From Bifidobacterium thermophilum DSM 20210 (GTDB taxonomy: Bacteria; Actinomycetota; Actinomycetes; Actinomycetales; Bifidobacteriaceae), in the NCBI GenBank assembly GCA_000771265.1, contig JDUB01000001.1, positions 1-64,000 on the forward strand: DNA of 64,000 nt, in the 5' to 3' direction. This document shows, piece by piece, positions 368 to 61,915 of the stretch. Each line of letters starts with the position of its first letter. Positions within the stretch are counted from its first letter, which is position 1. The notes beneath the pieces are model-generated. The model did not search any database, was not told the origin of the DNA, and was given only the letters and a program-made list of their open reading frames with translations. A program made the position numbers and the translations under genes.

Positions 368-482
368 ATTGTTCCGGTCTCCGCGCGTCCTGTATGCCGT
401 GGCATGCGCGGCTGAGCAGATATTGACGGAAAGTCGCCGTGACTGGCCATGTTCTGCTGATATCGCATGCCGAGACATTGTG
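368..482. repeat. Two-unit array of GTATGCC palindromes, about 73-bp period
   Basis: Palindrome 1 (392-407) is GTATGCC-gt-GGCATGC. Palindrome 2 (465-480) is a weaker version, GCATGCC-ga-GACATTG, 73 bp downstream. Positions 368-436 align over about 70 bp with 32511-32579, so the same repeat family occurs at two places in the window. Confidence 0.65.
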
Positions 483-32178: not shown

Positions 32179-32264
32179 GGATGAGTGTCCGAGCGGTCGA
32201 AGGAGCACGCCTCGAAAGCGTGTGAGGGCGAAACCCTCCGCGAGTTCGAATCTCGCCTCATCCG
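32179..32264 (+). tRNA. tRNA-Ser(CGA)
   Basis: The 86-base cloverleaf has a GGATGAG/CTCATCC acceptor stem, a CACGC/GCGTG anticodon stem with loop CTCGAAA (anticodon CGA, reading UCG), and the long variable arm of class-II tRNAs (GAGGG...CCCTC). The T arm contains GTTCGAATC. The discriminator is G, correct for serine. CCA is not encoded. Confidence 0.96.
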
Positions 32265-32268
32265 CAGT

Positions 32269-32510: not shown

Positions 32511-32700
32511 ATTGTTAGGTCTGCGTGCGCATCCTGTATGCCGCGGCATGCGAAGCTGAACAATATCGTCGGAAAGCAGCAGCTCCGGGCTGTGCCCTGC
32601 GGTCTGCGCATTCCCGGACATACGCAACTCGCCATATTGCTCACGGATGGGGCATGGCGTCTCCCGTCTGCCATGCGGCGTATGCCGGGGCATACGTAAA
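32511..32700. repeat. Three-unit array of GTATGCC palindromes, exact 72-bp period
   Basis: Palindromes start at 32536 (GTATGCC-gc-GGCATGC), 32608 (GCATTCC-cg-GACATAC) and 32680 (GTATGCC-gg-GGCATAC), exactly 72 bp apart. The sequence between them also aligns loosely (AATATCGTCGGA with CATATTGCTCACGGA), so these are diverged tandem repeats rather than unique spacers. A related two-unit copy is at 368-482. A further inverted repeat, GCATGGC/GCCATGC, lies at about 32652-32676. Confidence 0.7.
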
Positions 32701-58109: not shown

Positions 58110-59666
58110 ATGGCTGTCATGTTCACCATGCTGGGACTGTTCTTCGCCGGCATCATTCTCATCCTGTATATCACACAGAAACGCTCCCACTCCTTTGACG
58201 ACTACGCAGTGGCGGGAAGGTCGTTCGGCCCATGGTATGTGGCCATGTGCTACGTGAACTCCTGGTGGCCGGGCACCGTGTTCATCTCGTTCGCGGGGCT
58301 GAGCGTGGCCTCGGGCGTCTTCGGGTTCTACGGTCTGGCATATTCGACCCTCGGCCTGTCCTTCATGTATTTCGTGGCAACGAGGGCTTGGCGATGGGGC
58401 AAACAGTACAATCTGGTGACCCAGCCGGATCTGATGCGGCTGCGGTATTCGTCCAAAGCTGTCGGCGTGGTTACCTCGCTGATTGGCGCGATTGCGATTC
58501 TGCCGTGGACTATTCTCGGCATGCAGGCGCTCGCCACGGTCTTCCATATCGCATCGAACGGCAGCTGGGCATTGCCGGTGTGTCTCGGTGCCGGTCTCGC
58601 GGTGATTCTGATTCGTCAAATCTGGACCGTGCAGATGGGTATGCGCGGACTCGTGTATACCGATATGTACCAAGGAATCTTCGCCTATGTCATCGCCGCA
58701 ATCGTGTGCGTGTTCCTCCTGGTCTCGCCGTCCTCGCCAGCGAATTGGGGCGACCTGTCCCACATTTCCGCCGACTTGCTGAAGGTTCCCGGCGACGGTG
58801 GACAATACGGGCCGTGGTATCTGTTCTGCCAGATCTTCACCGGCGTGGTCGGCGCGCTGTGCTGGCCGATGAGCTTCGTACGCATCTACACGGCGAACAA
58901 CGTGCGATCCGTGAAACAGTCCACCAACCGGGCAATCATCATTTCCGGCGTATTCTACGCGCTGCTGACCTTGGTGATGCTCGCCGCCGCACATATCCCC
59001 GCGGTCGCCAAGGATCCGCAGGCCGGCTGGACCACGCTGCTCAACCAGTGGGGCGGGGTATGGCTTATGGGACTTGGTCTGGTGATGATCTTCGCCGGAT
59101 CCATCGGCCACATCGATGGCAGCATCCAGGCGGCCGGCACGCAGATCGCGAATGACATCGTCGGCAACAGGGTGCATCTCGACGATGCTACGAAGACCAA
59201 GGTGTCGAAGATCTGCATGGTCATCTTCGTGCTTGTTTCCGCGGTGCTCGCATACTTCACCAACGGCATGTCGCGCTTGCAGCTGCTCGCCCAGCTGTCC
59301 TACCAGGGCATCGTGCAGATCGCGGTTCCGTTGTTCTTCGGCATCTTCTTCAAGTTCGGCAACAAGTACGGTGCCCTGTCGGGCATGATTTCAGGCTTCG
59401 TTGTCGCCGCCGTGCTGACCGTCATCTATCCGGACGACATTGCCGCACTGGGCAGCTTGACTTCGGGCGTGGTAGGCATGATGGTCAATCTGGTACTGTA
59501 CGTGGTTGTCTCCCTAGCGACGCGCAATCGCATGAGCAAGCGGGAAATCGACCATGTCGATGAACTGTTCGAGGTTGCGTCCGCCAAGCGTTCCGCGTTG
59601 CCGGCCGCTGAAAGCCAGCAGGTGGAATCCGAGGTGACGGCTACTGAGGATGCTGTTGTGCAGTGA
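58110..59666 (+). CDS. Sodium:solute symporter family permease
   Basis: The product is 518 residues with about 13 hydrophobic segments, of the SSS family (PanF/PutP-like), which imports a small solute with sodium. Characteristic parts are DDYAVAGRSFGPWYVAMCYVNSWWPGTVF near the N terminus, and later FAGSIGHIDGSIQAAGTQIANDIV and GMSRLQLLAQLSYQGIVQIAVPLFFGIFFKFGNKYGALSGMISG. The last 40 residues are hydrophilic. It ends the amidase-kinase operon and probably carries the pathway substrate; the solute cannot be named from sequence. The ATG at 58110 follows GGAAAGGAAG. Confidence 0.88.
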   Translation: MAVMFTMLGLFFAGIILILYITQKRSHSFDDYAVAGRSFGPWYVAMCYVNSWWPGTVFISFAGLSVASGVFGFYGLAYSTLGLSFMYFVATRAWRWGKQYNLVTQPDLMRLRYSSKAVGVVTSLIGAIAILPWTILGMQALATVFHIASNGSWALPVCLGAGLAVILIRQIWTVQMGMRGLVYTDMYQGIFAYVIAAIVCVFLLVSPSSPANWGDLSHISADLLKVPGDGGQYGPWYLFCQIFTGVVGALCWPMSFVRIYTANNVRSVKQSTNRAIIISGVFYALLTLVMLAAAHIPAVAKDPQAGWTTLLNQWGGVWLMGLGLVMIFAGSIGHIDGSIQAAGTQIANDIVGNRVHLDDATKTKVSKICMVIFVLVSAVLAYFTNGMSRLQLLAQLSYQGIVQIAVPLFFGIFFKFGNKYGALSGMISGFVVAAVLTVIYPDDIAALGSLTSGVVGMMVNLVLYVVVSLATRNRMSKREIDHVDELFEVASAKRSALPAAESQQVESEVTATEDAVVQ

Positions 59667-59819: not shown

Positions 59820-60065
59820 GGTTATGTGAGCCGATCCTCACACGCAGGGGGTTGGACGACGCCGAATCGCCGATTTGCCGCCATCGACCGGTCATATTGT
59901 GAGCGAATCCTCACATGACGGCGGCTTGGATCGCTGCCATGGCTGATTCTGGCGGTTTGACTGCCCGTTGTGAGAGCGAATCCTCACACACTCACCCGAT
60001 CGGGCACCCCGATGAGCCGATGACCGCCATTGATCCGCTCATCTTGTGACCCGTTCCTCGCACTC
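59820..60065. repeat. Four-unit array of TGTGAG-N6-CTCACA palindromes
   Basis: Palindromes start at 59825 (perfect TGTGAG-N6-CTCACA), 59898 (perfect), 59969 (with an 8-base centre) and 60045 (TGTGAC...CTCGCA, decayed). Steps are 73, 71 and 76 bp. The intervening segments of the first units also align loosely, so this is a diverged tandem repeat between the symporter gene and pgm. Confidence 0.8.
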
Positions 60066-60136: not shown

Positions 60137-60173
60137 AAGACCCCGCCGCGGAGACATTCCGCAACGGGGTCTT
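60137..60173 (-). terminator. Terminator of pgm
   Basis: AAGACCCCG and CGGGGTCTT arms with an inner GGA/TCC pairing lie 48 bases after the pgm stop on the minus strand. Confidence 0.75.
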
Positions 60174-60220: not shown

Positions 60221-61915
60221 TCACTCAGCGAGTGCCTTGTCGACGACTTCGGTCGCTTCCTCGAGCACCTTGTCGAGGGTTTCGGGGGAGTCGAAGGATT
60301 CGGCGTACACCTTGTAGATGTTTTCGGTGCCGGACGGGCGGGCGGCGAACCAGTTGTTCTTGGTCGTCACCTTGAGACCGCCGATCGGCGCGTCGTTGCC
60401 CGGAGCCTTGGTGAGCTTCGCGGTGATCTCCTCGCCGCCCAGGGTGGTGGCGGTCACGTCGTCACCGGTGAGCTTGGCGAACTTCTGCTTCTGCTCGAGA
60501 GTGGTCGGCGTGTCGATGCGCTTGTACCAGCTCTCGCCGAAGCGTGCGACCTGGTCCTTGTGCAGTTCGGCCGGGTTCTTGCCCATCTTGCCGGTGATTT
60601 CCGCGGCGAGCAGGTCGGGAATCAGGCCGTCCTTATCGGTGGTCCACACGCGGCCGTCCTTGCGCAGGAAGCTCATGCCGGAGCTTTCCTCGCCGCCGAA
60701 GGCGACTTCGCCGGTGAACAGCGGATCGACGAACCACTTGAAGCCGACCGGGACCTCGACGAGCTTGGCGCCGATGGAGGCGGCCACGCGGTCGATCAGC
60801 GAGGAAGACACGAGGGTCTTGCCGATGCCGGTGCCTTCGGGCCAATCCGGACGGTTCGGGTTGCCATTCTTGTCTTTGCCGAACAGGTATTCGACAACGA
60901 CGGCGATGTAATGGTTCGGGTTCATGACACCCCAGTCAGGGCACACGATGCCGTGACGGTCGGCGTCCGGGTCGGTGCCGCCGACGAGATCGTACTTGTC
61001 CCAAGCTCCGTTGTTGAGCGAGTCAACGAGACCCTTCATCGCGTACGGCGAGGACGGATCCATACGGATCTTGCCGTCGTGATCGATGGTCATGAAGCGC
61101 CAGGTCGGGTCGACCTGCGGGCGCACAACCTCGATGGAGGTGCCGTACACTTCGTTGACGAGCGGCCAGTAGTTGACCGAGGCGCCGCCCAGCGGATCGA
61201 TACCGAGGCGCACGCCGGAGGACTTGATCACGTCGAAGTCGATGACGTTGCCCAGATCCTCGACGTAATGCTTGCGGAAGTCGAAACGTTCGACGAGGTC
61301 GGACTTGACGGCCTGCTCGAACGGGACGCGCTTGACGTTCTTGAAGTCGGGCAGCAGCTCATTGGCGCGCTTGGCGATCGCGTTCGTCGTCTCAGCCGGG
61401 GCCGGGCCGCCGGTCGGCGGATCGTACTTGAAGCCGCCGTCGGTGGGCGGGTTGTGCGACGGGGTGACGACGATGCCGTCGGCGAGGTCGTCGCCGGAGA
61501 AGCGCTGCGTGCCGTCAGCCGCACGGTTGTGCGTCAGAATAGCCTGGGAGACGACCGGCGTCGGGGTGAAGTCGTCGCGCGAATCGATGCGCACGCGCAC
61601 ACCGTTGGCGACCAGCACCTCGATGGCGGTCTTCCACGCCGGCAAAGACAGGGCGTGGGTGTCGCGGCCGATGTACAGCGGGCCGGTGATGCCGGCGGCC
61701 TTGCGGTGCTCGGCGATGGCCTGGGAGATGGCGACGATGTGGGCCTCGTTGAACGAGGTCTTCAGGGAGGAGCCGCGGTGGCCGGACGTGCCGAAGCTCA
61801 CGCGCTGCTCGGGGACGTTGACGTCGGGGACGATGTCATAGTACTTGCCGATGACTTCGTCGACGTCGATCAGATCAGCTGGGGTGGCGGGAAGACCCGC
61901 GTTTTTTGCTACCAT
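60221..61915 (-). CDS. pgm: Phosphoglucomutase, alpha-D-glucose specific
   Basis: Pgm, 564 residues, interconverts glucose 1-phosphate and glucose 6-phosphate, linking glycogen and UDP-sugar metabolism to the bifid shunt. The active-site phosphoserine is Ser153 in [19 protein letters not shown]; the magnesium loop [11 protein letters not shown] is near 312; the sugar-binding [10 protein letters not shown] is near residue 403; and the phosphate-binding [15 protein letters not shown] is at the C terminus. This is the long bacterial Pgm form. It sits alone between repeats and a PTS gene. Confidence 0.96.

Follow-up and report, generated by a model that had tools for sequence, protein, structure and literature searches.

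Helically phased palindrome arrays of Bifidobacterium thermophilum and their candidate DUF559/Vsr-like nuclease partners

Why should four copies of one palindrome, TGTGAG-N6-CTCACA, follow one another at steps of about 73 bp in a single intergenic region, and why should a palindrome with an unrelated core keep nearly the same step elsewhere? The question is raised by a 64,000-nucleotide stretch of Bifidobacterium thermophilum DSM 20210 (contig JDUB01000001.1, positions 1 to 64,000), referred to here as the window. In the source genome (G000; 2.22 Mb, 48 contigs) and its relatives, such palindromes form arrays with helical phasing, individual palindrome families are linked to particular genes of the DUF559/Vsr-like nuclease family, residues of the nuclease active site are conserved, and whole array units have been gained and lost between species. 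From these features we infer DNA binding, cooperativity, cleavage and mobility: phased arrays are probably bound cooperatively by a cognate Vsr-like nuclease and spread by its cutting and the ensuing repair.

The initial annotation described four TGTGAG-N6-CTCACA palindromes in series, and all four are present at the positions listed in Table 1. Their steps are 73, 73 and 74 bp; the series of 73, 71 and 76 bp first given arose from an overlapping TGTGAG at 59969 that lies 2 bp out of register. Since 2.6 core matches with two or fewer mismatches are expected by chance in the whole 64 kb, against four found inside 238 bp, the clustering is not a chance event. Genome-wide, the core occurs in 179 copies at one mismatch or fewer, against one for a reversed control, and nearly all of them lie in homotypic arrays stepping 73±1 bp, or 146 bp where one copy is missing. 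Among TGTGAG neighbours less than 110 bp apart, 261 of about 270 pairs step by 72-74 bp (21, 175 and 65 in turn), a count in which the loci of sister species, though not those of the source genome, were preselected with a 71-75 bp window. The window array belongs to class A (consensus SGTCAYTG-TGTGAG-GATTSG-CTCACA-CARTGACS), an extended inverted repeat of about 34 bp whose arrays hold 2-11 copies. Arrays of class B (TTGRT-TGTGAG-TGGYSR-CTCACA-AYCAA), with 8-13 copies each, lie within C1:202-246 kb. Class C (GTATGYC-NN-GRCATAC) has a core unrelated to TGTGAG and the same step of 72-74 bp, as in the copies at 32536, 32608 and 32680, which bears out the early remark that an unrelated palindrome runs near this phasing. 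The form GTATGCC-NN-GGCATAC occurs at 32 sites in the genome at one mismatch or fewer, with none for the control. Some intergenic regions contain a class A and a class C array next to each other, both remaining homotypic.

Reading about 73 bp as seven helical turns, as had been suggested at the outset, agrees with the steps of other cores in other bifidobacteria, which fall near multiples of 10.5 bp at about 42, 51-52, 63, 71-73 and 84-94 bp. When intergenic DNA was scanned for pairs of similar palindromes a fixed distance apart, with no core specified, the source genome showed a peak at 73 bp with smaller ones at 52 and 63 bp, and a second genome, G043, showed steps of 51-52, 63 and 71-73 bp. 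The search for other arrays of similar step thus returned class C along with families of other cores at near-integral turns, and the pattern recurs in several genomes rather than being one strain's array among unrelated spacings. Outside families A, B, C and F, distances cluster at one 10.5-bp phase (R=0.60, n=67, nominal p 4e-11). This statistic takes one distance per cluster after simple motif filters that leave a few degenerate A/B/C/F members; clusters from the same family are not independent of each other, and the peak near 10.5 is a broad one. A genuine array of clustered regularly interspaced short palindromic repeats (CRISPR) in G043 (L211, G043:C18), long and with a 61-bp period, was kept out of the phase statistics. 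Spacing of this kind suggests that all cores of an array lie on one face of the DNA. It also bears on the simplest account, in which the arrays are neutral tandem repeats that have diverged outside the core. Some spacers within one array are indeed related and whole units come and go, but unrelated cores share the 73-bp step, other species prefer 42, 51-52 or 63 bp, and the clusters of other families, if not fully independent, are phased, leaving this account very improbable.

Several other elements were seen alongside these arrays. Family F (L194-L213 in G043) consists of long arrays with a 51-52 bp step in which GTACGKTCSGTY half-sites switch orientation roughly every 26 bp; no DUF559 partner was located for it. 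Paired palindromes of about 30 bp (GTCACNSTGC..) lie 71-73 bp apart at L206, L195 and L201 in G043 and at L161 and L162 in G011. In the copies inspected, a semi-conserved AAACCYTTGGAAA..GGRTTTCC stretch lies midway, and the pairs may be a separate type of compact element. At L078 of Paractinoplanes lichenicola, TGTGAGTACTCACTCACA sites occur at 663, 765 and 836, with a 71-bp step from the second to the third; this locus has a different core, is possibly unrelated, and was set aside as a member of the same system.

What might bind such sites? The first clue in the search for a binder was a DUF559 protein encoded between two class B arrays. Class B arrays lie beside every class B nuclease locus checked, and on both sides of L273, L275, L252 and L253 in four genomes. 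A second paralog (L240/L243; G000:C12:112517-113470 in the source genome) has class A arrays on both sides, and a third, L278 in G008, is bracketed by class C arrays; the class C paralog was predicted first, then searched for and found. Family I arrays flank L249 in G043 in the same manner. In the boum group, arrays of the own class occur on both sides of all six close paralogs, none of the six other paralogs and one of 218 other genes (Fisher 3e-8 for 6/12 paralogs versus 1/218 other genes), with windows of 1.5 kb for paralogs and 1 kb for control genes and a control pool chosen partly for class C. Four of the six linked close paralogs are orthologs; counted independently, the cases are those of classes A, B and C and of family I in G043.

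The DUF559 family is present in 83 of 112 bifidobacterial genomes at one to eight copies each, and L234, L240, L237 and L236 score above the cut-off of PF04480. Residues E190, D227, E238, G241, H244 and D251, a putative active site, are invariant in 19 proteins. The N-terminal region of about 200 amino acids is conserved. Weak relatives in the PDB are 3hrl (endonuclease-like), PvuRts1I and 3r3p, a homing-type protein of a mobile intron (E-value 0.17). The nucleases of classes A and C share 67% identity, with class B at 42-45%, and this closeness of A and C may explain how unrelated palindromes share a 73-bp step. Spacing appears to be set by the protein subclade and the core by its DNA-reading surface, which would account for unrelated palindromes with equal phasing. 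Separately, a Vsr mismatch-endonuclease gene (L008:2653-3393) stops no more than a few bases from a class A array.

Elsewhere in the genus, DUF559 genes are accompanied by other repeats. Half-sites 42 bp apart in direct repeat lie 3' of the gene in 18 of 44 cases versus 9 of 264 controls, and inverted repeats lie 3' of 62% versus 24%; upstream of the genes the association of inverted repeats is not significant (p 0.69). The 42-bp half-sites are dispersed in the same lineage only, with 63 in G031, 34 in G042 and 0 in nine others. In G031 they belong to a compact, lineage-specific element with half-sites at +0, +42, -132 and -174 and about 18 dispersed copies. Similar dispersed half-sites occur in smaller numbers in G001 and G028.

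In the mechanism we favor, the class A palindrome would be a double-stranded site for a protein dimer, and sites kept seven helical turns apart would place the bound dimers on one face, touching. The most likely binder of class A is its cognate DUF559/Vsr-like paralog, with classes B and C served by paralogs of their own. The nuclease would bind the phased sites cooperatively, and its cutting, followed by recombinational repair, would let arrays expand, contract and spread. The relation of nuclease to array is modelled on that of the REP-associated tyrosine transposase (RAYT) to repetitive extragenic palindromic (REP) sequences and their doublets (REPINs). Whether this amounts to a new class of repeat system is an evenly balanced question. 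Such a class would comprise radiating Vsr-like nucleases, one palindrome per paralog, that assemble on phased arrays and multiply or maintain them, the protein geometry setting a step of 4, 5, 6 or 7 turns while the DNA-reading surface varies freely. A self-spreading or chromosome-coating repeat system of this kind is apparently undescribed; the open-access literature held no paper tying DUF559 or Vsr-like genes to such repeats (subscription papers lay mostly outside the search).

Several observations weigh against a nuclease that spreads its own arrays. G008, G014 and G101 keep class A arrays, and no class A-flanked nuclease was found there; likewise the source genome has class C arrays and no class C nuclease was found. 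Either arrays outlast the gene or something else maintains them. Families D, F and H could not be matched to a nuclease, and L248, L274, L280 and other paralogs lack A/B/C arrays. An AlphaFold model built from two sequences was of too low confidence (mean predicted local distance difference test score, pLDDT, 46) for a DNA-binding domain to be identified, and no case was caught of an array inserted at a new, formerly empty locus.

Arrays that persist where no cognate nuclease was detected would also fit a role in organizing the host chromosome (nucleoid structure, insulation), with a host protein as the binder and the DUF559 genes as homing-type parasites inserted in their target arrays. The weak match to the homing-type entry 3r3p and the location of nuclease genes inside arrays, like homing genes, point the same way. 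A DUF559 gene has been assigned to the EDxHD/Vsr-like homing endonucleases (I-Bth0305I) in PMC9403480, citing Taylor 2011, and the likeness extends to the weak profile matches to 3r3p and 3hrl and to a gene that sits between arrays of its putative target. The present genes differ in that no intron or intein was seen, the sites are dispersed by the hundreds, and a conserved N-terminal region of some 200 amino acids is present. Against host arrays with homing parasites, each partnered palindrome family has its own paralog, which would require the host protein and the parasite to switch specificity jointly, and in other species the gene adjoins a single copy of a compact dispersed element instead of lying inside an array. 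On balance, we consider this alternative unlikely.

Could the palindromes act instead as hairpins? In classes A, B and F the two halves of a palindrome vary independently of each other, with no hairpin covariation, and the palindromes therefore look like double-stranded sites. Hairpins of RNA or single-stranded DNA, such as terminators or REP-type elements, would be in keeping with palindromes that are intergenic and often lie between convergent genes; besides the missing covariation, however, the window gave no Rfam match, a Y1 transposase was absent from seven genomes, and RNA would not be expected to follow a helical phasing. There is very little probability left for hairpins. REP/REPIN-RAYT systems are among the nearest parallels: short intergenic palindromes, lineage-specific, in many dispersed copies, with matching copies flanking a transposase- or nuclease-type gene (PMC3116915, PMC2817692). 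The combination of repeats that flank the partner gene and are also dispersed in the genome is found here. The inter-REP spacings seen most often in Pseudomonas SBW25 are 71 and 110 bp (PMC3116915). The REP partner is a Y1 (HUH) transposase, whereas here it is a DUF559/Vsr-like PDDEXK protein, an unrelated enzyme; PF01797, the Y1 family, was absent from the seven genomes, with 5 of 14 known genomes positive in a control search. REP hairpins have paired stems, unlike the arms of A, B and F, and REPINs are inverted hairpin doublets, whereas the present arrays are homotypic with non-identical spacers at whole helical turns. The G031 element, in its + + - - form, is doublet-like as in a REPIN.

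The setting of the window array speaks to a regulatory role. It had been placed before pgm, a location that proved wrong: its neighbours, the symporter gene and pgm, are convergent, and the array is downstream of both (Table 1). Operators for transcription factors acting on neighbouring genes would explain a symmetric, dimer-type site and a spacing that looks cooperative. Yet the window array is downstream of both neighbours, flanking genes have no evident common function, and convergent genes flank about 40% of class A arrays versus about 19% of gaps of at least 200 bp (24/127), a count based on gene calls by a simple open-reading-frame heuristic and including orthologs. Operators of this kind are improbable, and a CRP-like or other operator for pgm was rejected in view of the array's downstream position and unrelated neighbours. 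An origin or terminus marker was also discarded, there being no GC-skew switch at the class B region, as was a ParB/parS site (TGTTTCACGTGAAACA); the canonical parS sites are separate, eight of them at C47:59-63 kb. As to class C, a tRNA-Ser gene lies at 32179-32265 of the window, and the array of three copies lies 270-430 bp downstream of it.

Table 1. Palindromes and neighbouring features of the window
Feature	Position	Strand	Remarks
Class A palindrome 1, TGTGAGCCGATCCTCACA	59825..59842	-	0 mismatches; asymmetric centre reads GAT on the - strand
Class A palindrome 2, TGTGAGCGAATCCTCACA	59898..59915	-	+73; 0 mismatches
Class A palindrome 3, TGAGAGCGAATCCTCACA	59971..59988	-	+73; 1 mismatch
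Class A palindrome 4, TGTGACCCGTTCCTCGCA	60045..60062	.	+74; 2 mismatches
Sodium:solute symporter family gene	58110..59666	+	PF00474; upstream of the array, convergent with pgm
pgm (phosphoglucomutase)	60221..61915	-	3' end faces the array; name from the initial annotation
Inverted repeat, likely pgm terminator	60137..60173	.
Class C array, three copies	32536..32695	.	72-bp steps; downstream of tRNA-Ser gene
Class C pair	392..480	.	Sites 392 and 465, 73 bp apart; second degenerate

Comparison among species adds a view of array turnover. Of 112 congeneric genomes, 5 show the two-core 73-bp pattern; named relatives are Bifidobacterium boum, B. apri, B. thermophilum, B. minimum and Pseudoscardovia radai. 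Orthologous arrays in sister species have gained and lost whole 73-bp units, and their spacers diverge in a similar way to other flanking DNA. The pgm gene is 99% identical to that of G008, a genome that from its count of matches is probably B. apri, and the source species is probably a close sister of B. apri. A counterpart of the pgm array exists in B. boum but not in G008. The inverted repeat between array and pgm is kept in both B. boum and G008, while the DNA beyond it changes. Neither arrays nor DUF559 homologs were found in viral contigs. As a side observation, the DNA next to pgm is occupied time and again by either a DUF559 nuclease gene or a phased array, with cores that differ by species, a pattern reminiscent of a favoured landing site; the loci concerned are L111 (G032), L113/L233 (G016), L125 (G055), L122 (G043), L037 (B. 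boum) and 59825-60062 of the window.

Other known repeats offer partial parallels. CRISPR arrays likewise combine regularly spaced repeats with unique spacers; they were rejected here, given variable cores, many small arrays and two arrays that, searched against phages and against plasmids, gave no match. In S. agalactiae, AbiEi binds inverted repeats cooperatively, and such repeats measure 23 bp, lie 3 or 13 bp apart and serve one promoter (PMC7319586). By analogy, the arrays may resemble AbiEi operators as inverted repeats with cooperative protein binding; identity with AbiEi was dismissed after no AbiEi match was found in Pfam, NCBIfam or PADLOC. In B. animalis, the palindrome GGGACAG(N)15TGTCCC was left unexplained, with 20 of 21 copies intergenic and mostly nearer 3' ends; the portions of that report consulted mention neither helical spacing nor a gene partner (PMC5217627). 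It is probably the same kind of element.

If the proposed partnership of nuclease and array is correct, gut bacteria that attract wide interest would have evolved a REPIN-type alliance of gene and repeat on the basis of an unrelated nuclease fold. Phasing would then offer a direct readout of protein assembly on DNA, with the sharp prediction of one paralog, one palindrome and one spacing. Many repeated intergenic palindromes of bifidobacteria would then be explained, and DUF559 proteins, now annotated only as carrying a domain of unknown function, would gain a probable role.
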